Part shown: piece by piece, positions 2,833 through 14,968 of the stretch
How positions within the stretch are numbered: position 1 is the stretch's first letter
Layout of the letters: each line of letters starts with the position of its first letter
NCBI GenBank assembly: GCA_024642665.1
Contig: JAHEAR010000001.1
Location: 92,764 to 145,439 of the forward strand
Length of the DNA stretch: 52,676 bases
Direction: 5' to 3'
Origin: Bacteroidota bacterium
Lineage (GTDB): Bacteria > Bacteroidota > Bacteroidia > Chitinophagales > Saprospiraceae
The notes under the pieces: generated by a model
Seen by the model: only the letters and a program-made list of their open reading frames with translations
The model's database searches: none
Told to the model about the DNA's origin: nothing
Position numbers and translations under genes: made by a program

Positions 2833-3297
2833 TTAGAAGGTAACGCCATCAGGCAAAAATGGTTTAGCATTTCCTCCTCCTTTGATGATTTCTCTGACAA
2901 TAGTGGAGCTTATATGGGAGAATTCGGGTTTGCTGATAAAGAATAAGGTCTCTACATCATCCCCCACAATTTGGTTAAGCTGGCTAATCGTTTTTTCATA
3001 ATCAAAATCAGAAGCATTTCGCAATCCCCGAAGCAGATAATGGGCATTCACTTTTTGACAAAAATGAACCGTTAATCCCTCAAAAACATCCACCCGTATC
3101 CTGTCTTCAGCTTGAAAAACATTTTCAATCCAGGACTTACGTTCTTCCAGCGTAAAAAGGGTTTGCTTCTGCGAATTAATCCCAATGGCAATAATCACTT
3201 CATCAAATAAAGGCAATGCACGACGGACTAGATCAACATGCCCGGTGGTGATCGGATCAAATGACCCGGGGAAAACAATTATCTTTTTAGCTTTCAT
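2833..3297 (-). CDS. coaD: Phosphopantetheine adenylyltransferase
   Basis: A cytoplasmic nucleotidyltransferase of ~154 residues that converts 4'-phosphopantetheine and ATP to dephospho-CoA, the penultimate step of CoA synthesis. The family's N-terminal FPGSFDPITTGH motif is present (a T-x-G-H variant of HxGH), as is the C-terminal ISSTIVREII motif that corresponds to the second nucleotide-binding signature. An in-frame ATG four codons upstream (3309) is also possible. I prefer 3297 because family members begin a few residues before the Phe-Pro-Gly motif. The length is standard. Confidence 0.93.
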   Translation of the reverse strand: MKAKKIIVFPGSFDPITTGHVDLVRRALPLFDEVIIAIGINSQKQTLFTLEERKSWIENVFQAEDRIRVDVFEGLTVHFCQKVNAHYLLRGLRNASDFDYEKTISQLNQIVGDDVETLFFISKPEFSHISSTIVREIIKGGGNAKPFLPDGVTF

Positions 3298-3371
3298 AAG
3301 ACTTGACATAGGACTGAACTACAAATATCACACCTTCAGGCCAATATAACACATCATTTCTACTGTTGATT

Positions 3372-4677: not shown

Positions 4678-5018
4678 GTATTCATTCAAGCGCATCTTTT
4701 CCTCCGCAGTAAGCCCATCCGGTCTCAGCCGGACGAGCTAAAATATCCTCAATATTTTGTTGGACAAATCAATCCAATACAGCAGGATTTGATGTAACTT
4801 AACCAGGCATTTAGCTTGAATTCTACTACCTGGTTGAAGTGCATTTGACCCTTCAATCAGGCTTGAATAGTATAAAACCTGAGGTTCCTTTGTCCTGATA
4901 AATAGGCTTATGAACATTTTGGATCGTCTAATATTTGCTAAAGGAGAAAAGAATTTTGCCACTTTCCCCAATAATCTGTATTTTCACTCCCAAAGTCTTA
5001 TCTATCAACAATATACCA
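4678..5018. other. Leader/intergenic region before the T9SS propeller gene
   Basis: I see no gene here. A small imperfect hairpin (tccgg..ccgga at 4718-4733) and a near-consensus -7 box (TAATATTTG, 4929-4937) are present. The latter is ~80 bp before the ATG at 5019 and could drive it. Confidence 0.4.
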
Positions 5019-8000
5019 ATGCACAGAATTTACATATTTACCTTATTCCTATTTGTGGCAACCTTAAGCATGGCTCAGACAAATCTCGAAGCCAGCAGGG
5101 TATTTGGAGGCAATTCAAGCGATGAAGCGAAAGACATCAAAGTGAATTCCACGAAAACGGCCTTATTTCTTGGCGCCAGAACTTTTTCCAATGATGGTGA
5201 TATACCTGAAAATGCAGGTGCAAGTGATTTTTGGATCATGAAAATGGGGTTAGATGGAAGTCCGATATGGAATAAGACTTTTGGCGGACTTAGTGACGAT
5301 GACCTTGAAGTGGTACTTCCCCACCCTGATGGAGGCACGCTTGCTTTTGGAACCACAAGAAACTCCCAAGGGTTGTTTGGCACCTTGTTAGGAAATACCG
5401 GTGGATGGCTGATGCGAACCAATTCAAACGGAAGCATTATTGATGGTCAAATATTTGGAGGGACCATTGCAGAGACAGCTGTCGATGCTTTCAGACACAT
5501 AAGCGGGGAAATCACCATGACCCTTTCCGCAAGCTCACCGATTTTGTATGGTGCTCAGAATAATGGGATCCTTGATGTTTGGGTAGTCCATGTAAATCCT
5601 ACACTGAATAACCAATGGTCTGCTTTATTGGGAGGCACCGGTATAGATATTCCAAATGCCATTACCGGAGATATTAATGGATACACCTACATAGCGGCAA
5701 CAAGTGATTCAAACCTCCCTGGTCTTTCTATGAATGCCGGGGGTACAGATCTCTGGATTATAAAACTTGACCAATCAGGCCAGATGGTCTGGCAGCAAAC
5801 TTTTGGAGGATCCAATGATGATAAGGCCAGTGATATCATTGTACATCCAAATGGCGATGTATATGTAATCGCACATTCTTCTTCCGATGATGGTGATTTC
5901 AATAGTAATTATGGAATAAATGATTTATGGATATTAAAATTAAATGGCGAAGATGGCACCTCAAAAGGCATCTATCATTACGGAGGAAGTGGGAATGATT
6001 ATGACGCTAAATTCGAATTCGCCAACGAAAATCAAATTGTCATTACTGCAAATTCAACCAGTAGTGATATTGATCTTACAGGCAATAAAGGATTTGGTGA
6101 TGCCTGGTCTTTTATCACCAACCTGGATGGTGATATAGTTTCACAAATGAATTACGGGGGATCTTTAAATGACTTTGCTGCAAAAGTAATTAGCGTGGAT
6201 AGTGTATTTCATTTCTATTCCAGCACACTGTCTAAAGATAAAAATGTGCCCTTTAATAGCCTTTCACAATTGAATACATGGTATTATGCTTTAAATCCAT
6301 ATCCTGATACTTGCTCATCAACGTATATATGCCTTCAGGATACGACTACGAACAATCACATCTACCCTCCGGCAGATAACTCTTTAATTTGCGTTGAAGG
6401 ATGCAATGCAGGTTATGGCCCCGGTCCAACATTAAACAATAATGAATGTCCTGATTTTGTGAATGCGACCTCTTACTTTTATATCACTACAGACACTACC
6501 GCAGACCTGCTTACCATAAGTGTTAGCTCCGATGAATTCAATCAACCTCAGATTGCGCTCCTCCGATCCGTTAATTGTACCTCCTTTCAGACCGTAGCTT
6601 GTGCGTCAGGAGAAGATGGTCACGTGGTGATGAATTTCGTTGAAATACAACCAAACAGAACTTATGTCGTAGCCATTTCTGATCTGGAAGGAAATATTGG
6701 ACAGTATGAATTTTGTGCCACCTCTATTGATGTTGATTTTTGCAATAAGAATGATCAAATTTATGTAACATCAACCTCGATGGGAAGCAATTATGTAGGG
6801 CCATTTAAACCGGGTGAAGAAGTTCAGATTTGTTATGAACTTACAGATTGGGACAAGCTTGAATGCAATGGATTTCAAGGTGTTATTCCCACGTTCGGTC
6901 CCGGATGGGACGCTTCATCCTTTGACCAATATGGAAAACCCATTCAAATTGATACGATGCTCACGCCGGCGACTGAAGGTGAATGGGCATGGCACAGACT
7001 GGGTGAAGTGCACTACAACACTTTTAATCCCGTAAGTGGATATGAGGGTGGGCAAGGATTACCTCCCGGTTGGTACTTTACAAACACCACTGATCCACCA
7101 CCTGCAGATGAACCTGATCAGACTACGGGAGACATCGATAATTGCCTCAACAATTCAGACTCCTGGAAGGTATGCTTTACATTGACCGTTGTAGATGAAT
7201 GTGATGCCAATTTAGATTGCACCATCACCATGAAGACTTTTGCAGACGGAGAAATCGGCGTAAATACTAATCTGGGTTGTGGCTATGATCAAAAGGAAGT
7301 ATTTGAAGCAAATATGGTTTGCTGCATTAATCCTTCCATACAACAGATTCAAAACTTTTCGATTTGCAGTGGCGATACGATTGATTTCAAACCGGAAACA
7401 AATCTCTTTCCTCCTGTCACCTATACCTGGACAGCAGATCCGGATCCTTTTATTATGGGGGCTGCTGCCGGCAACCAATTACCACAGTTTTATCAAAACC
7501 TGATTAATGAAACGGCCATTCCGCTTACTGTCCGATATAGCATCAAAGCCCAAACGCAGGATTGCGAAACCAGTTACAAAGATTTTGAAGTGACTGTTTA
7601 TCCAAAACCAACCTCAAGGTTATCGGTCTCTGGTCCGAATATAGTATGCAGTGGCTCTACTGTCACGCTTAACTTCGAAAGCACTGGAACACCGCCATTT
7701 GCCATTGGACTCTTTAAAGACAATCAGCTTTTTGCGAATGTATTAAGCGAATCTACTTTATTAACCATCAATATTGATCCGGTCTTTAGTGGCACCTTCC
7801 GAATCGGAACACTTCAGGATGCTAATTGCTCAGGGTTCGGTACGGGCTCCGTCAATGTGACGATAAAACCGGTCTCCAGTATGCAACTGGATACAACGAT
7901 CTGCGAGGGTGAATCAATTTTAATTGGGGATGACCTATTTTCTGACCCGGGCACCTATACCATAGTATTGGAAAATGCTGGATCAAACAATTGCGATAGT

Positions 8001-8852
8001 ATAGTTAATCTGAATCTGGGTGTTGCACCAATACTTACAGAAACCGTTGACGAAATAATTTGCAACGGAGACACCTTATTTATTTTAGACCAACCCTATA
8101 CAAAGACTATTGATACACTCATTGAGTATATTGGCATGGAAAATTGCCCGAACTTTATTGACTTGCATCTTCTTGTCATGGATACATTTTCCATGAGCAT
8201 CGCCCAAACCATTTGCCATGGTGATACCCTTGATTTTGAAGGCACACCCGTCTATGAAGCAGGATCATATTCCAATGTCGTTGAAATAAGACCCGGTTGC
8301 TTTGAAGAAACAATACTCAACCTGAGTGTCTTACCTCAAATATTTGTGAATGACTTGTCAATTATGGGTGACAATGGTTCCGGAAATGGAGCCATACTGG
8401 TTGAAATAATCGGCGGTACTTCTCCCCTGACTTATTTATGGAGTTCCGGTCAAACCACAGAAAGTCTGTTTAATATAATGCATGGGATATATCAACTGAC
8501 CGTTACAGATGGCCTTGGTTGCACACAGGAATTTGAATTCGAGGTCCCAATGATCTCCGGATCAGTGGACCTGTCTGCGATTGATAGTCGCTTGAAAATC
8601 TGGCCTACCTTGATTTCTTCTAATGATAAAGTTCAGTTGTACAATTCGGGAACTACTAACCTACAGTTACGCTCAATGGATTGGATTGCCACATCAGGGA
8701 GGAAACTAAGTTCTCCGATTGACCTTCCACTGGAAGCAGGTCAGACGATTTCAGCGCCTTTGCCTGGACAGCTGACAGAAGGTATTTATTTTCTGAAAAT
8801 AAAACTTGCTGATGGCGCATCGATCTGGTCAAAAATTTTAGTGATCGATTAA
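5019..8852 (+). CDS. T9SS-secreted propeller protein with SprB-like repeat and type A sorting domain
   Basis: A 1277-residue exported protein. The ATG at 5019 is chosen over the upstream TTG because it directly begins a signal peptide (MHRIYIFTLF..., predicted cut after SMAQ). Residues ~25-430 hold about seven repeats of the form FGGS-xDD...DLWIxKLxxxG, an SBBP-like beta-propeller. The middle has cysteine-containing Ig/PKD-like segments. A SprB-type repeat sits around residues 1110-1180 (GGTSPLTYLWSSGQTT). The last ~85 residues form a type A T9SS sorting domain ending GIYFLKIKLADG...ILVID. It is therefore expected on the cell surface or released. Ligand and function are unknown; an adhesive or structural role is inference. 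It stands alone and ends in a terminator. Confidence 0.85.
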   Translation: MHRIYIFTLFLFVATLSMAQTNLEASRVFGGNSSDEAKDIKVNSTKTALFLGARTFSNDGDIPENAGASDFWIMKMGLDGSPIWNKTFGGLSDDDLEVVLPHPDGGTLAFGTTRNSQGLFGTLLGNTGGWLMRTNSNGSIIDGQIFGGTIAETAVDAFRHISGEITMTLSASSPILYGAQNNGILDVWVVHVNPTLNNQWSALLGGTGIDIPNAITGDINGYTYIAATSDSNLPGLSMNAGGTDLWIIKLDQSGQMVWQQTFGGSNDDKASDIIVHPNGDVYVIAHSSSDDGDFNSNYGINDLWILKLNGEDGTSKGIYHYGGSGNDYDAKFEFANENQIVITANSTSSDIDLTGNKGFGDAWSFITNLDGDIVSQMNYGGSLNDFAAKVISVDSVFHFYSSTLSKDKNVPFNSLSQLNTWYYALNPYPDTCSSTYICLQDTTTNNHIYPPADNSLICVEGCNAGYGPGPTLNNNECPDFVNATSYFYITTDTTADLLTISVSSDEFNQPQIALLRSVNCTSFQTVACASGEDGHVVMNFVEIQPNRTYVVAISDLEGNIGQYEFCATSIDVDFCNKNDQIYVTSTSMGSNYVGPFKPGEEVQICYELTDWDKLECNGFQGVIPTFGPGWDASSFDQYGKPIQIDTMLTPATEGEWAWHRLGEVHYNTFNPVSGYEGGQGLPPGWYFTNTTDPPPADEPDQTTGDIDNCLNNSDSWKVCFTLTVVDECDANLDCTITMKTFADGEIGVNTNLGCGYDQKEVFEANMVCCINPSIQQIQNFSICSGDTIDFKPETNLFPPVTYTWTADPDPFIMGAAAGNQLPQFYQNLINETAIPLTVRYSIKAQTQDCETSYKDFEVTVYPKPTSRLSVSGPNIVCSGSTVTLNFESTGTPPFAIGLFKDNQLFANVLSESTLLTINIDPVFSGTFRIGTLQDANCSGFGTGSVNVTIKPVSSMQLDTTICEGESILIGDDLFSDPGTYTIVLENAGSNNCDSIVNLNLGVAPILTETVDEIICNGDTLFILDQPYTKTIDTLIEYIGMENCPNFIDLHLLVMDTFSMSIAQTICHGDTLDFEGTPVYEAGSYSNVVEIRPGCFEETILNLSVLPQIFVNDLSIMGDNGSGNGAILVEIIGGTSPLTYLWSSGQTTESLFNIMHGIYQLTVTDGLGCTQEFEFEVPMISGSVDLSAIDSRLKIWPTLISSNDKVQLYNSGTTNLQLRSMDWIATSGRKLSSPIDLPLEAGQTISAPLPGQLTEGIYFLKIKLADGASIWSKILVID

Positions 8853-10256: not shown

Positions 10257-12377
10257 ATGGCAAAGGATACCTTATATAAGGACGACAGATATATTAATCG
10301 GGATATTAGCTGGCTCAGCTTTAATTATAGAGTCCTGCAGGAAGCGATGGATCCAAATGTTCCGCTGATGGAGCGGGTTAAGTTTCTAGCTATCTACAGC
10401 AGCAACCTGGATGAATTTTTCAGAGTCCGCGTTGCCAACCACAGGAACCTGCTTAAACTTGGCAAAAAGACGCAAAAACAATTGGATTACGATCCGAAAG
10501 CTATATTACTCCATATTCAAAATATCGTGAGTCAACACGCTATTGAGTTTGAAGATATTTTCCAAAACCAAATCATTCCGGATTTAAAAAAACAAGACAT
10601 CCACTTATTAAGAAGGGAAAATTTATCGCCCGAACAACAAGAGTTTGTCGAAACGTATAGTCAGGAATATTTGCTTCCGCATGTTCAACCGGTACTTCTG
10701 GTTAAGGACAAAGTGCGACCATTTCTAAACAATCGGGCGCTCTATCTGGCGATTCTGATGAAGGACAAAGATGTATCTTCGGGCGAAGATCAATATGCCA
10801 TTATTAAAATACCATCTGATGACCTGCCTCGCTTTATTGAATTACCTTCCAAAGGACATGGCCATGACATAATTATTCTTGATGATATTGTACGTTTAAG
10901 TGTCAGGTCATTATTTCCCGGCTTTCAAATCATCAATACATATTCCATCAAACTTACGAGAGATGCAGAGCTCTATATCGATGATGAATATCAGGGGGAT
11001 TTAATTAATAAGATTAAAAAAAGTCTTTTAAAAAGAGATGTGGGTCCGGCTTCCAGGCTTGTTTATGACAAAACTATTCCCACCCATTTTCTTGAATATC
11101 TGATGGAAGTGCTGGAGGTTGAAAAACTGGACTTAATACCGGAAGGTCGTTACCATAATAATTCTGATTTTTTCAAGTTTCCGGATTTTGGCATGGATCA
11201 CCTCAAAGATATTGCCTTACCTCCCTTGGATTATCCACCATTACACAATACGCCATCCATCTTCGATCCAATCAAAAAAAGAGACCACCTGATCTACCTT
11301 CCCTATCATAAATATGAGCCGGTCGTTGAATTTTTTGAACATGCCGCCAAAGACCCGAATGTAACACATATAAAGATTATCCAATACAGAGTTGCGCCTA
11401 ACAGCCGTATCATGGAAGCCTTAATCAATGCAGTAAAATCTGGTAAACAGGTGTATGCTTTCATTGAAGTCAAGGCACGATTTGATGAAGAAGCAAATCT
11501 TCGATGGGGTGAACAACTTGAGCAAGCCGGTATAGTCGTCAGATATAGTTTTCCGGGCTTAAAAGTCCACAGCAAACTTGCTCTGGTTCGAAGAATTGAA
11601 GCTGACGGACCCCAATTGTACACCTATCTCAGTACGGGAAACTTTCATGAAATCACTGCGCGAATTTACAGTGATCACGGATTGTTTACTTCAGACCCAC
11701 GGTTAACATCAGAAGTTGCCAGAATATTTTCCTTTCTGGAAACAGTAAAACTTCCTAACGAAGAATTCAAGCATTTGCTCGTAGGACAATTCAATCTGCG
11801 CAAAAAACTCATTCATTTTATTGATTTTGAAATAAATGAGGCTAAGGCAGGTCGTCCAGCCAAAATAACACTCAAAGTAAACAGCCTGCAGGACGAGGAT
11901 ATGATTGAAAAGTTGTATGAAGCCAGTCAGGCAGGGGTTCAAATCGATTTAAATATCAGAGGCTTGTGCTCTTTAGTGTCCGGAAAGAAAGGGCTTAGCG
12001 AAAACATAAAGGCATTTAGTATTGTGGATCGATTCCTTGAACACAGTCGGATCTTTATCTTTCATCACAAAGGCAAAGAGAAGGTTTATCTGTCATCGGC
12101 CGATTGGATGGAACGAAATTTATCCTTCAGGATTGAGACTGCTTTTCCAATCTATGACAAAAAACTAATTGCTGAAATAAAGGAGGAATTGTCCATCCAG
12201 CAAAGTGATAATATAAAATCAAGATCTTTGCAATACAATCGGATCAACAAGTTTATTCAAAACGATTCAAACCTGGTCATTCGATCGCAGCATGAGATTT
12301 ACTCTTTCCTTCTTCGCAAACAACAGGAGGAATTAAAACTCAAAAAGGCAGAGGAAGAAGAATTAAAGGCATTATAA
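10257..12377 (+). CDS. ppk1: Polyphosphate kinase 1
   Basis: A 706-residue enzyme that reversibly builds inorganic polyphosphate from ATP. The catalytic phospho-accepting histidine is His438 in KVHSKLALV. The flanking signature YLSTGNFHE and the acidic/arginine motif RIYSDHGLFTSD of the first PLD-like domain follow. The N-terminal domain (IN-RDISWLSFNYRVLQEA) and the four-domain length are standard. The C-terminus ends in a Lys/Glu-rich helix. The ATG at 10257 fits family N-termini. The gene is transcribed away from tpiA. A 95-bp gap follows before the small sorting-domain ORF. Confidence 0.96.
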   Translation: MAKDTLYKDDRYINRDISWLSFNYRVLQEAMDPNVPLMERVKFLAIYSSNLDEFFRVRVANHRNLLKLGKKTQKQLDYDPKAILLHIQNIVSQHAIEFEDIFQNQIIPDLKKQDIHLLRRENLSPEQQEFVETYSQEYLLPHVQPVLLVKDKVRPFLNNRALYLAILMKDKDVSSGEDQYAIIKIPSDDLPRFIELPSKGHGHDIIILDDIVRLSVRSLFPGFQIINTYSIKLTRDAELYIDDEYQGDLINKIKKSLLKRDVGPASRLVYDKTIPTHFLEYLMEVLEVEKLDLIPEGRYHNNSDFFKFPDFGMDHLKDIALPPLDYPPLHNTPSIFDPIKKRDHLIYLPYHKYEPVVEFFEHAAKDPNVTHIKIIQYRVAPNSRIMEALINAVKSGKQVYAFIEVKARFDEEANLRWGEQLEQAGIVVRYSFPGLKVHSKLALVRRIEADGPQLYTYLSTGNFHEITARIYSDHGLFTSDPRLTSEVARIFSFLETVKLPNEEFKHLLVGQFNLRKKLIHFIDFEINEAKAGRPAKITLKVNSLQDEDMIEKLYEASQAGVQIDLNIRGLCSLVSGKKGLSENIKAFSIVDRFLEHSRIFIFHHKGKEKVYLSSADWMERNLSFRIETAFPIYDKKLIAEIKEELSIQQSDNIKSRSLQYNRINKFIQNDSNLVIRSQHEIYSFLLRKQQEELKLKKAEEEELKAL

Positions 12378-12406
12378 AGCTGTATTTAGCTAAAAAAAAG
12401 GTTTTT

Positions 12407-12759
12407 TTCAGGGTTTACCATGTGGTATCGTATATCCTTTTGCCCTGATATTTAAGCATAGAATTATCGTCCATGCAACCTACAACAGTTTCTGGGGAAT
12501 CTTCCCTGCACCTAACCAACCATTCTCGATCCCTTTGGATCAATTTCGCTCGGCCTTTACCTGCCAAAGAGGTTGTGGTCATCCTCCATGATCGCCTTAG
12601 CAGGAATCTGAAGTACAACCTCCAGGTCATTACTGCTAATACCCGCGGTATTGAGGTAAAACTACCTCAAATGAAAACAGGCATCTATCTATTGAAAATA
12701 AAAGATGGTCAGGATACTTTTCAGCAACAGGTAGCCATTCAGTAGGGGTAAACCCTGAA
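12407..12759. repeat. Perfect 13-bp inverted repeat enclosing a 353-bp segment
   Basis: ttcagggtttacc at 12407-12419 and its exact reverse complement ggtaaaccctgaa at 12747-12759 bracket the orphan sorting-domain ORF. The right arm begins one base after its stop codon. No clear target-site duplication is visible next to the arms, and there is no transposase, so a mobile-element reading is unproven. Confidence 0.6.
12473..12745 (+). CDS. Orphan T9SS type A sorting domain-like ORF
   Basis: A 90-residue ORF whose sequence resembles only the C-terminal sorting domain of T9SS cargo: alternating hydrophobic strands, an 'xVxxxLHDRLxRN' turn where cargo domains have the N-x-x-G-R strand, and the terminal pattern MKTGIYLLKIKDGQ...VAIQ. 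It has no signal peptide and no cargo domain. The in-frame upstream stop is at 12446-12448, so the domain is not fused to anything. It is either the surviving 3' end of a decayed secreted-protein gene or a stand-alone sorting domain. It lies between ppk1 and a strong terminator on the same strand and is flanked by 13-bp inverted repeats. Confidence 0.5.
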   Translation: MQPTTVSGESSLHLTNHSRSLWINFARPLPAKEVVVILHDRLSRNLKYNLQVITANTRGIEVKLPQMKTGIYLLKIKDGQDTFQQQVAIQ

Positions 12760-12814
12760 TTAAAAATTGGGTGTTTATGCTCATGTTTGAAATAAAATAT
12801 TGCCGCACCTTTAC

Positions 12815-12951
12815 ATCGTAATTAAAAACAACAGCAATTTATAACAACAAGAAATAAAAGCAGGAAAGCCATCAAGGGGATTACTGCCTGAAGATTATAA
12901 AGGGGTGAGACTTGCCGGGGTCGTCAAAGGGTGACACCGGCATTTTTTTTT
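12815..12951 (+). ncRNA. Possible small RNA ending in a strong terminator
   Basis: A -33-like TTTG (12786-12789) and a weak -7-like CACCTTTA (12806-12813) precede an A-rich, non-coding ~100-bp stretch that ends in a strong Rho-independent terminator. No known RNA family is recognised. The terminator could equally serve the ppk1/sorting-domain transcript, so this is a candidate only. Confidence 0.25.
12913..12951 (+). terminator. Rho-independent terminator
   Basis: tgccgg/ccggca, extended inward by gtc/gac past a single mismatch, forms a GC-rich stem followed directly by nine T. It is oriented for plus-strand transcripts coming from ppk1 or from a local promoter. It does not fit the leftward ABC-F gene. 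Confidence 0.88.
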
Positions 12952-13042
12952 GCCCAACCATCAGATTATGCCCGTTGTCGTTCGACTTTTTACCGATTCA
13001 GGATCAGACAATTTATTCTGTCCGCAATCGTAGCAACTTGCC

Positions 13043-14968
13043 TTAGGCAAGCTTATCTGCAAGATCTTCCCACTCTACCATCAGCTTTTCCAATTCAAGT
13101 TTTCTGGCTTCATACGCGTCAACCTCTTTTTGAAAACCCGCTGTTTGATAGAATTCAGGATCCCCCAGCAGGATTTCCTTATCCTTGATATACGCTTCAC
13201 ACAAACTGATATCCTTTTCCACCAGATTAAATCGCCGCTGAAGGTTTTTTAATTCCTTCGTTAAAGCAGCATCATTATTAGGAGAGTTATAATTGGCATT
13301 CGTTTTTTCTTTTTTTCCCTGATCCGCTTTTTCCTTCTGAAGTACTGCCAATGATAAGGCATCAAGTGTTTCGATCCCTTTCTTGCTCAGCATCTCATCA
13401 ATATCACCAATATATTCTTTGATTCTACCTTCAGCAAACTCGACCGTCTTCGAAGTCAATCCGGTCAGAAAGTCCCGGTCGTGAGAAATAATAATCAATG
13501 CCCCAGGATATTCCATCAGCGAATCCTTTAACCTTTGCTTGGCCTGAATATCAAGGTGGTGTGTGGGCTCATCCATAATGAGCAAATTTGTATGCGATAG
13601 AATCATGCAGGCCAGAGCCAGTCTTGCTCTTTCACCCCCTGACAAAACGGATACTTTCTTTCCTGAATCCTCTCCACTAAACATAAAAGCACCCAGAATT
13701 CCTCTAACGCGCGGTCTTACTTCAGGGGAAGCTAATTCTTCAATGGTCTGCAATACCGTTTTGTTCCTGTCAAATAGTTCGGTCTGATCCTGGGCATAAT
13801 ATCCGATCATTACCTTCTCATTGACCTCCAGCAGTCCTGCACTGGCAGGTATTATATTCCCGATCATTTTAGCCAGTGTGGATTTACCCTGACCGTTTTG
13901 ACCAACAAATGCTATTTTTTCATTGCGTTCTATATCAAAATCAACTCCCTTTAAAACTTCCTTTTGGCCGTAGGATTTTGATAGGTCAACGGTATGGACC
14001 ATGGTCCTGGGCGATCTGTCTAAAACAGGAAATCGAACTTTCATCACGGCCTCATCATCTTCATCGACTTCAATAATCTCTACCTTCTCCAATTGCTTTT
14101 CCAATGATTTGGCCATACTTGCTTTTGAAGCTTTGGCCCGGAACCGGTCAATCAATTTTTCAGTACGCTCTATATTCTTTTGTTGGTTCATCGCAGATGC
14201 CTGCTGAATCTCCTTTAATTTTTGCCGCTCTTCTTTGAACTTTGAATACGGTAATGGCATATCATATAACCGGCCTAGAGATATCTCAATGGTTCGATTG
14301 GTCAACTCATCCAAAAATCGTTTGTCATGCGATACCAAAAGAATTCCAGCTTCAGAAGCTTTGAGAAATTTTTCTAACCAAATAATGGAAGGCATATCCA
14401 GGTGATTGGTAGGCTCATCCAGTAAAAGATAATCAGGTCGACCCAATAATAACTTCGCCAATTCTACTCTCATTTGCCATCCGCCGGAAAGCTGGCCAAC
14501 AGGTTTTTGAAAAGTTTCATCATCAAAACCTAATCCCTTTAACACCTTTTGAATATCCCCTTCAATCGTCGCCGCACCCAGATGATCAAGATCTCCGTAT
14601 AGCTCACTGAGACGTTGACTGAGATCCATGATACGATCATCATTCGTACAATGTTCTAGCTCTTTTGTGATGAGTTCCAGTTCGTCATTGATGAGTTGTA
14701 CCCTGTCAAAAGCTGTATAAGCAGCTTCCATTACCGTCAGGGCCGGATCAATACTGATCTCCTGCTTCAGATAGGCCATGCTCGGCGGGCGGTCAACCAC
14801 ACCGGAATCGGCTTCTGCCATCCCGGCAATGATCTTCAACAAGGTAGATTTTCCTGTACCATTGCGACCGATCAGACCAACTTTCTCGCCCATGCGTACT
14901 GCAAACGAAACACGATCCAACAATGTCCGGTCTCCAAATTTCAAGGTAATGTCCTTCACTAAAAGCAT
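13043..14968 (-). CDS. ABC-F family ATPase
   Basis: A 641-residue soluble protein with two ABC domains and no membrane segments. Such proteins act on the ribosome (translation factors or antibiotic protection). Walker A motifs are GRNGTGKST and GQNGQGKST, signature motifs are LSGGWQMR and LSGGERAR, and Walker B motifs are LLLDEPTNHLD and LIMDEPTHHLD. A charged interdomain linker (~residues 240-300) and a C-terminal coiled coil after ~550 give an Uup/YfmR-like layout. The ATG at 14968 matches the usual MLLVKDITLKFG-type start; a 16-codon extension is unlikely. It lies 107 bp downstream of yqgE on the same strand and may be the last gene of the folE-fabD-yqgE transcript. Confidence 0.92.
   Translation of the reverse strand: MLLVKDITLKFGDRTLLDRVSFAVRMGEKVGLIGRNGTGKSTLLKIIAGMAEADSGVVDRPPSMAYLKQEISIDPALTVMEAAYTAFDRVQLINDELELITKELEHCTNDDRIMDLSQRLSELYGDLDHLGAATIEGDIQKVLKGLGFDDETFQKPVGQLSGGWQMRVELAKLLLGRPDYLLLDEPTNHLDMPSIIWLEKFLKASEAGILLVSHDKRFLDELTNRTIEISLGRLYDMPLPYSKFKEERQKLKEIQQASAMNQQKNIERTEKLIDRFRAKASKASMAKSLEKQLEKVEIIEVDEDDEAVMKVRFPVLDRSPRTMVHTVDLSKSYGQKEVLKGVDFDIERNEKIAFVGQNGQGKSTLAKMIGNIIPASAGLLEVNEKVMIGYYAQDQTELFDRNKTVLQTIEELASPEVRPRVRGILGAFMFSGEDSGKKVSVLSGGERARLALACMILSHTNLLIMDEPTHHLDIQAKQRLKDSLMEYPGALIIISHDRDFLTGLTSKTVEFAEGRIKEYIGDIDEMLSKKGIETLDALSLAVLQKEKADQGKKEKTNANYNSPNNDAALTKELKNLQRRFNLVEKDISLCEAYIKDKEILLGDPEFYQTAGFQKEVDAYEARKLELEKLMVEWEDLADKLA

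Follow-up and report, generated by a model that had tools for sequence, protein, structure and literature searches.

The two arms of a perfect 13-bp inverted repeat that bracket an orphan T9SS-sorting-domain-like ORF in the window (i.e., the whole 52.7-kb stretch of DNA analysed here) are, as read by comparison with relatives, two copies of one palindromic operator, approximately TCAGGG-N4-CCCTGA. The left copy precedes the predicted promoter of the orphan and the right copy that of a separate downstream RNA unit, a two-operator architecture that we regard as very probable. From the same patterns we infer, as probable, a two-component regulon whose outputs would be a small RNA and a cytosolic protein resembling a sorting domain, together with the transcription, binding and function that these would entail. 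The features concerned, all on the + strand, are:

12407-12422, + strand: left operator copy (TTCAGGGTTTACCATG), before the orphan promoter; exact arm in the sister genome G001, counterparts at 10 of 10 judgeable loci
12447-12456, + strand: probable -7 box of the orphan (GATATTTAAG); operator 30-32 nt away in 5/6 genomes as judged by eye
12473-12745, + strand: orphan T9SS-sorting-domain-like ORF without signal peptide, 90 aa; ORF list, domain profiles, dN/dS, relatives
12743-12759, + strand: right operator copy, which overlaps the stop codon and forms the distal site for the promoter that follows; operator past the stop at all 11 loci
12767-12779, + strand: proximal half-site (TTGGGTGTTTATG), ~23 nt past the right operator; downstream-promoter alignment
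12786-12815, + strand: promoter that we take to be of Bacteroidota type, TTTG at 12786-12789 and -7 box (CACCTTTACA) at ~12807-12815; sequence, G001 alignment, spacing
12816-12951, + strand: probable small RNA of ~135 nt, conserved core 12890-12951 with AAGGGGTGAGAC; comparison, predicted start
12913-12951, + strand: intrinsic terminator, hairpin plus T-run; strand fold, consensus with compensatory changes

Probable twin operators and their predicted promoters

An earlier note on this DNA had described a free 90-codon sorting domain, lacking signal peptide and cargo, bracketed exactly by the arms, and its coordinates are confirmed: TTCAGGGTTTACC lies at 12407-12419 and GGTAAACCCTGAA at 12747-12759, the latter starting one base past the stop codon of the ORF. 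In a whole-genome search of the 3.7-Mb genome the exact 13-bp arm occurs twice, both times at this locus. A hand calculation puts the chance expectation for perfect 13-bp inverted pairs within 400 bp at ~0.3 per 52.7-kb window, so the repeat taken alone is close to chance and its significance comes from conservation in relatives. Specifically, in the sister genome G001 the left arm is unchanged and the right arm differs by one mismatch, and an operator follows the orphan stop codon at all 11 loci and precedes the orphan gene at 10 of the 10 that could be judged (the eleventh, in G308, is cut by a contig end). In G113 and G034 the left operator is degenerate, and in G229 it lies 258 nt from the orphan ATG. 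Operator counterparts are thus present at orthologous loci in relatives, and the genome itself holds no extra exact copy of the arm. A full-length secreted gene at these loci in relatives, which the earlier note named as a refuting outcome, was not found.

Spacing between operator and promoter is near-fixed. In the window, the left operator lies ~30 nt before the orphan -7 box and the right operator ~55 nt before that of the RNA; measured by eye from the palindrome centre to the -7 box, the distance is 55-57 nt in 8/8 downstream RNA promoters and 30-32 nt in 5/6 orphan promoters, the sixth (G035) having a palindrome at 56 nt and a site nearer the promoter. A mechanical scan (TA..TTTG, four best sites listed per promoter) placed a 29-31 nt site among the top four for 9/9 orphan promoters (best or tied in 6; in the window the site, at 31 nt, is within the top four and not the best) and for 11/11 regulator promoters, where it was best or tied in all 11. 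For RNA promoters, a 54-56 nt site was recovered in 12/13 (best or tied in 10; missed in G034b), and in the window and G001 a 31-nt site outscores it. The -7 boxes behind the non-scan distances were chosen by eye, as were the proximal centres that the scan used for G035, G349 and G275.

Two observations bear on which arm belongs to which unit. Between the window and G001, the best-conserved parts of the interval are 12754-12828, just after the ORF, and 12904-12953, the terminator region; together these hold the right arm, the half-site, the Bacteroidota-type promoter and the terminator. In G113 and G034 the downstream unit occurs in tandem with an AGGG-N4-CCCT palindrome before each copy, so that the right arm goes with the downstream unit and the left one with the promoter of the ORF itself.

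The large RNA stem raised in the earlier note is rejected on these comparisons. The 366-nt stretch does fold somewhat better than its shuffles (z of -2.7 for the window stretch, -2.1 for that of G001); however, pairing between the arms decays across relatives, with longest runs of 13, 10, 5, 9, 3, 6 and 4 in seven genomes and means of 7.1 for a genome's own arms vs 6.3 for arms paired across genomes, while each arm retains its core and its distance to a predicted promoter. A small non-autonomous mobile cassette, spreading sorting domains between 13-bp terminal repeats, was likewise suggested by the perfect, terminal-like repeats set so tightly around the ORF. Yet the genome holds no further exact arm, copies at non-orthologous places were not found, no target-site duplication was seen by eye, and the right copy goes with the downstream unit, whose duplicates in G113 and G034 each bring an operator of their own. 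Neighbouring genes are also similar across genera, with ABC-F or YqgE/FabD at most other loci: the next gene, on the other strand, is an ABC-F gene in the window, G001, G113, G077, G035, G229, G349, G275 and G308; YqgE and FabD come directly after in G034; and in G186 other genes intervene before the ABC-F gene, ~3.6 kb further along. We therefore give the cassette almost no credence.

Operator-like sequences also occur elsewhere. The window genome holds a third operator-like palindrome (L088, G000:C34:51760) ~185-197 nt upstream of a gene that by eye resembles a LysM-bearing lytic transglycosylase, and this site is common to G001 (L100, G001:C64:119048). Other exact AGGGNAAACCCT sites in five genomes include several within coding sequence (by eye). 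One further locus (L174, G167:C1) carries a kinase gene, three operator-like boxes and a promoter-like stretch followed by the ABC-F gene, has no orphan ORF, and is perhaps an RNA-only version of the arrangement.

The orphan gene and its product

To place the ORF among relatives, ppk1, the gene to its left, served as the anchor for the orthologous position (60 genomes searched, 56 with a match, 29 relatives' loci compared). This comparison of the region downstream of ppk1, also put forward in the earlier note, found the ORF by tblastn at one of the 29 loci, that of G001, a member of the same genus whose ppk1 is 84% identical. The G001 ORF has 90 codons, occupies the same place after ppk1 and is 50% identical with no indel. 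Between the two genomes the orphan has dN 0.38 and dS ~1.6, and ppk1 has dN 0.125 with dS undefined; on dN, the orphan is the less constrained. Nonetheless, 45 of its 90 residues are identical, against a mean of 30 and a maximum of 43 when the same substitutions were placed at random 5000 times, and 92% of those placements gained a stop codon. Orphan pairs within genus g35 have dN of 0.014-0.125, dS >=0.46 and dN/dS of 0.02-0.09 (9/10 pairs, those with dS defined). The ORF thus appears to be a real conserved gene under purifying selection, and the substitution null test and the g35 ratios reject a pseudogene.

Wider searches revealed further carriers. Two separate searches, a two-protein profile against 398 family genomes and a DNA query of the downstream region against 199, reached the same G113 and G077 loci; the G034 locus also came from the DNA search, and G035 was added through the kinase search described below. 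Matches in the DNA search fell in 81/199 genomes, most of them short and near chance, and one (G000:C19:193980) was discarded as lying inside a kinase gene. A six-row profile on the 398 genomes then gave 10 matches at E <=8.1e-28, the next standing at 1.2e-10, where long cargo frames start; G186, with a short ORF at E 1.7e-9 and the same flanks, is the eleventh locus. The orphan is therefore present in at least 11/398 sampled family genomes and in six genera (g1, g34, g35, g76, g94 and g112), a lower bound since, among the matches listed, only 13 candidates per genome were scored; the mid-length frames in G307, G398 and G237 stand outside this count. Its distribution across the family is patchy: within g35 itself, G159 and G332 gave weak profile matches only. 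Two other candidates were set aside, G095:C134 as an ordinary cargo tail and G287:C449 as the end of a longer ORF.

Across the 11 genomes the ORF is 89-93 aa long with nothing else attached, i.e., without cargo, though in G349 the frame is also open upstream (163 codons from an earlier ATG) and the operator lies inside that stretch. No signal peptide is apparent by hydropathy at the start of the six proteins measured: the best 9-residue mean within the first 35 residues is low (0.5-1.3) in five, and in G034 a peak of 2.54 falls in a segment away from the protein's start.

These data bear on the possibility that the ORF is simply a remnant—what is left of a secreted gene whose C-terminal sorting domain persists by chance between unrelated palindromes, or what the earlier note called the remains of a deletion. 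The missing signal peptide, the sub-threshold profile score of the window protein and a rate of change faster than that of ppk1 are what a remnant would give. However, intact ORFs of near-constant length across six genera, purifying selection and a conserved promoter geometry stand against it, and we consider it very improbable.

The product resembles a T9SS type A sorting domain mainly in its C-terminal half (GxYxLxI.DGK...K.I.LQ), which is also where the window protein matches the domain profiles. It scores below the curated cut-offs (21.8 of 23 bits for TIGR04183, 19.7 of 27 for PF18962), whereas the G034 protein exceeds both (32.7 and 37.4 bits) and those of G113 (24.9) and G077 (24.6) exceed that of TIGR04183 alone; at E up to 0.05, PF18962 matches 9/11 proteins and TIGR04183 6/11. 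What sets the orphan apart from such a domain is that it stands alone, with its own predicted promoter and neither cargo nor signal peptide. A PNP-type motif, which we take to mark the start of T9SS domains, was not seen in the orphan proteins. An AlphaFold2 model of middling confidence (pLDDT 76) predicts a seven-strand Ig-like sandwich, and the solved T9SS C-terminal domains 8glk_D and 8qb1 are the T9SS domains among the many Ig-like matches listed for it, none of them at Foldseek E <=0.001; matches to DUF3244 and BCAP structures were taken as common Ig folds. The predicted product is a cytosolic sorting-domain-like protein.

The surroundings of the ppk1-anchored loci hold several other features. 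Upstream of a tpiA-like gene and ppk1, the window carries a long ORF (4935-8852) with SBBP and PKD-like domains and, by eye, a sorting-domain-like tail. The sister contig that bears the locus carries an IS30-like transposase ORF at one end (by eye; L113 15-1016, G001:C43), and in G018 two partial ppk1 matches, each with an internal stop (G018:C17:65178-65360 and 67477-67725), lie beside a full ppk1.

The probable downstream small RNA

By comparison, the unit after the orphan has its own predicted promoter, an intrinsic terminator and a conserved structure with compensatory changes, as looked for in a small RNA. In an alignment of seven copies from five genomes the AAGGGGTGAGAC core is invariant, and compensatory changes occur at 3/17 pairs of the terminator hairpin. 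We read the unit as a probable separate small RNA ending at 12951.

Because AAGGGGTGAGAC resembles a ribosome-binding site and is followed by ATG or TTG, the unit could instead be a leader or a gene for a tiny peptide. The start codons (ATG in G034, TTG in the others) do lie at a fitting distance, but the frame varies in length between genomes and stops at once in G034 (by eye), the hairpin with its compensatory changes and the T-run come immediately after, and the next gene is on the opposite strand. A peptide gene is accordingly improbable, and the RNA reading is retained.

A covariance model of this RNA matched 35 of the 398 family genomes at E up to 0.01, with clear copies only in the same five. 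The 25 weaker loci that were looked at (L119-L143) were rejected, as they look like generic terminators; GGGGTGAGAC is absent from the matched strand of all 25, and its complement lies inside the terminator hairpin of one (L129, in G185). Six further matches fall outside those 25. Members of g35 carry at the same position a different RNA of ~250 nt, the last ~90 nt of which are almost invariant over four genomes, with a compensatory change at 4/74 predicted pairs; it does not match as a copy of the window RNA model, though position and operator are alike. In Rfam, nothing in window 12300-13100 reached gathering score (best 26.3 bits vs a gathering score of 46), and L199 and L084 returned 0 matches.

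When five genomes were searched for complements of the RNA core as candidate targets, the perfect matches were the RNA genes themselves, and the single-mismatch sites at the 10 loci examined had no gene common across genomes. Post-transcriptional control is the role tentatively favoured for this candidate RNA.

The putative regulator and comparison with known systems

The genes for a NarL/FixJ regulator and then a TPR histidine kinase come first in G113, G077 and G034, followed by the orphan and the RNA; G035 and G349 have one gene separating the kinase from the orphan. The regulator has receiver and GerE domains and the kinase HisKA_3 and HATPase domains (both members of the pair in G113; the kinase in G077). 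The window genome encodes a kinase counterpart (44% identical to that of G113) and an adjoining regulator ~95 kb away on the same contig, and its kinase starts with a signal-like sequence. In this genus the pair (L112 9969-12626, G000:C19:199968-202625) is therefore unlinked, ppk1 lying to the left of the orphan instead, and no operator was found before the regulator gene; the assignment of the regulator accordingly draws on other genera. The same L112 stretch contains an ORF of a tandem ITHHPSP-like repeat (3019-3351), possibly non-coding repeat DNA.

A kinase search matched 48/150 family genomes at E <=1e-60, from which 30 loci were taken; these and the larger stretches gave 23 distinct regulator upstreams of 220 nt each, loci whose regulator start was unrecognised or too near an edge being dropped. 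Eleven of these 23 contain the palindrome, against a shuffle mean of 0.66 and a maximum of 3 in 300 shuffles. It is present in 0/6 orphan carriers and 11/17 others (p ~0.009), a contrast that is indicative only, as the genomes are related. It looks as if the operator had shifted its main targets, either away from the regulator gene and towards the orphan and the RNA or the other way round.

These data allow two readings of what binds the operator. The operators and the RNA may be real and the binder another regulator (e.g., a global factor), the two-component pair being a fellow target or an unrelated neighbour. This would fit the unlinked pair and operator-less regulator gene in the window's genus, the 6/17 non-carrier regulator upstreams in which the palindrome is absent, and the shared operator site upstream of the transglycosylase-like gene. 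However, nearly half of the regulator upstreams carry the operator at near-fixed spacing, and in several genera regulator, kinase, orphan and RNA sit side by side; autoregulation of the regulator fits these patterns best. We thus rate another binder as unlikely, though to be taken seriously, and the NarL/FixJ regulator paired with the TPR histidine kinase as the probable operator-binding factor.

Under the two-component reading, the left operator copy would serve the gene for a 90-aa cytosolic protein consisting solely of a T9SS-type sorting-domain-like Ig fold, and the right copy, with the half-site ~23 nt on, would serve a small RNA that has a terminator to itself. Both operators would be bound by the NarL/FixJ response regulator, with the TPR kinase and its signal-like N-terminus as partner. 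The kinase would sense envelope state—a cue suggested by its TPR region following a signal-like start—and the phosphorylated regulator would switch on both the sorting-domain mimic and the RNA. The RNA may in turn tune envelope or secretion genes, and the mimic may act as a cytosolic signalling or feedback partner. That part of a Bacteroidota family has domesticated a T9SS sorting domain as a free cytosolic regulator, whose synthesis, jointly with that of a small RNA, one two-component system controls through twin operators, falls in our judgement somewhat short of an even chance. If true, tag and RNA would form a loop coupling T9SS or envelope state to post-transcriptional control, much as a NarL-type regulator is coupled to RNAs in Gac/Rsm.

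The components are of known kinds. Their combination, and a stand-alone sorting domain under selection, are without a counterpart found in the open-access literature, where neither a stand-alone, signal-less sorting-domain gene nor this RNA was found described; the remark in the earlier note that no stand-alone T9SS sorting-domain cassette is described agrees with this. The locus provides three things: a free-standing sorting domain that shows evidence of selection for a role other than secretion; a putative regulon that can be tested through its operator motif, spacing, regulator and kinase, within a Bacteroidota family that is diverse; and RNAs, candidates for a regulatory role, with no Rfam family at gathering score. 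To our knowledge, coupling of T9SS secretion to gene expression has been studied mainly in Porphyromonas.

In GacA/UvrY systems, a NarL/FixJ regulator acts through palindromic upstream sites on small RNA outputs (RsmY/RsmZ or CsrB/CsrC). The locus shares with them, in its general architecture, the type of putative regulator, the palindromic sites and the probable RNA outputs, here sometimes in tandem; it differs in phylum, in kinase type and in having a protein output beside the RNA. The ComA box of Bacillus is a 6-4-6 palindrome bound by a NarL/FixJ regulator. The operator here has the same 6-4-6 form and putative NarL/FixJ binding, but its half-site is TCAGGG, vs TTGCGG in the ComA box.

The closest precedent found is PorA of Porphyromonas gingivalis, where a T9SS C-terminal domain is involved too. 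In the part of its description drawn on here, PorA is a T9SS C-terminal-domain protein that influences a two-component pathway, PorXY-SigP, suppressors of its loss mapping to the cytoplasmic domain of the kinase, and it has a signal peptide, a FimH-like domain and a cell-surface location (PMC7712824). The orphan resembles PorA in its type of C-terminal domain and in the probable link to a two-component pathway, whereas it has neither signal peptide nor FimH-like N-terminal domain and is hence, by these criteria, not a PorA orthologue; the same part of the PorA account features no small RNA, unlike the locus here (PMC7712824). This precedent, a T9SS C-terminal-domain protein feeding into a two-component pathway, together with a product that resembles a T9SS signal yet has no visible route of export, leads us to favour, tentatively, a cytosolic signalling or feedback role for the orphan protein.
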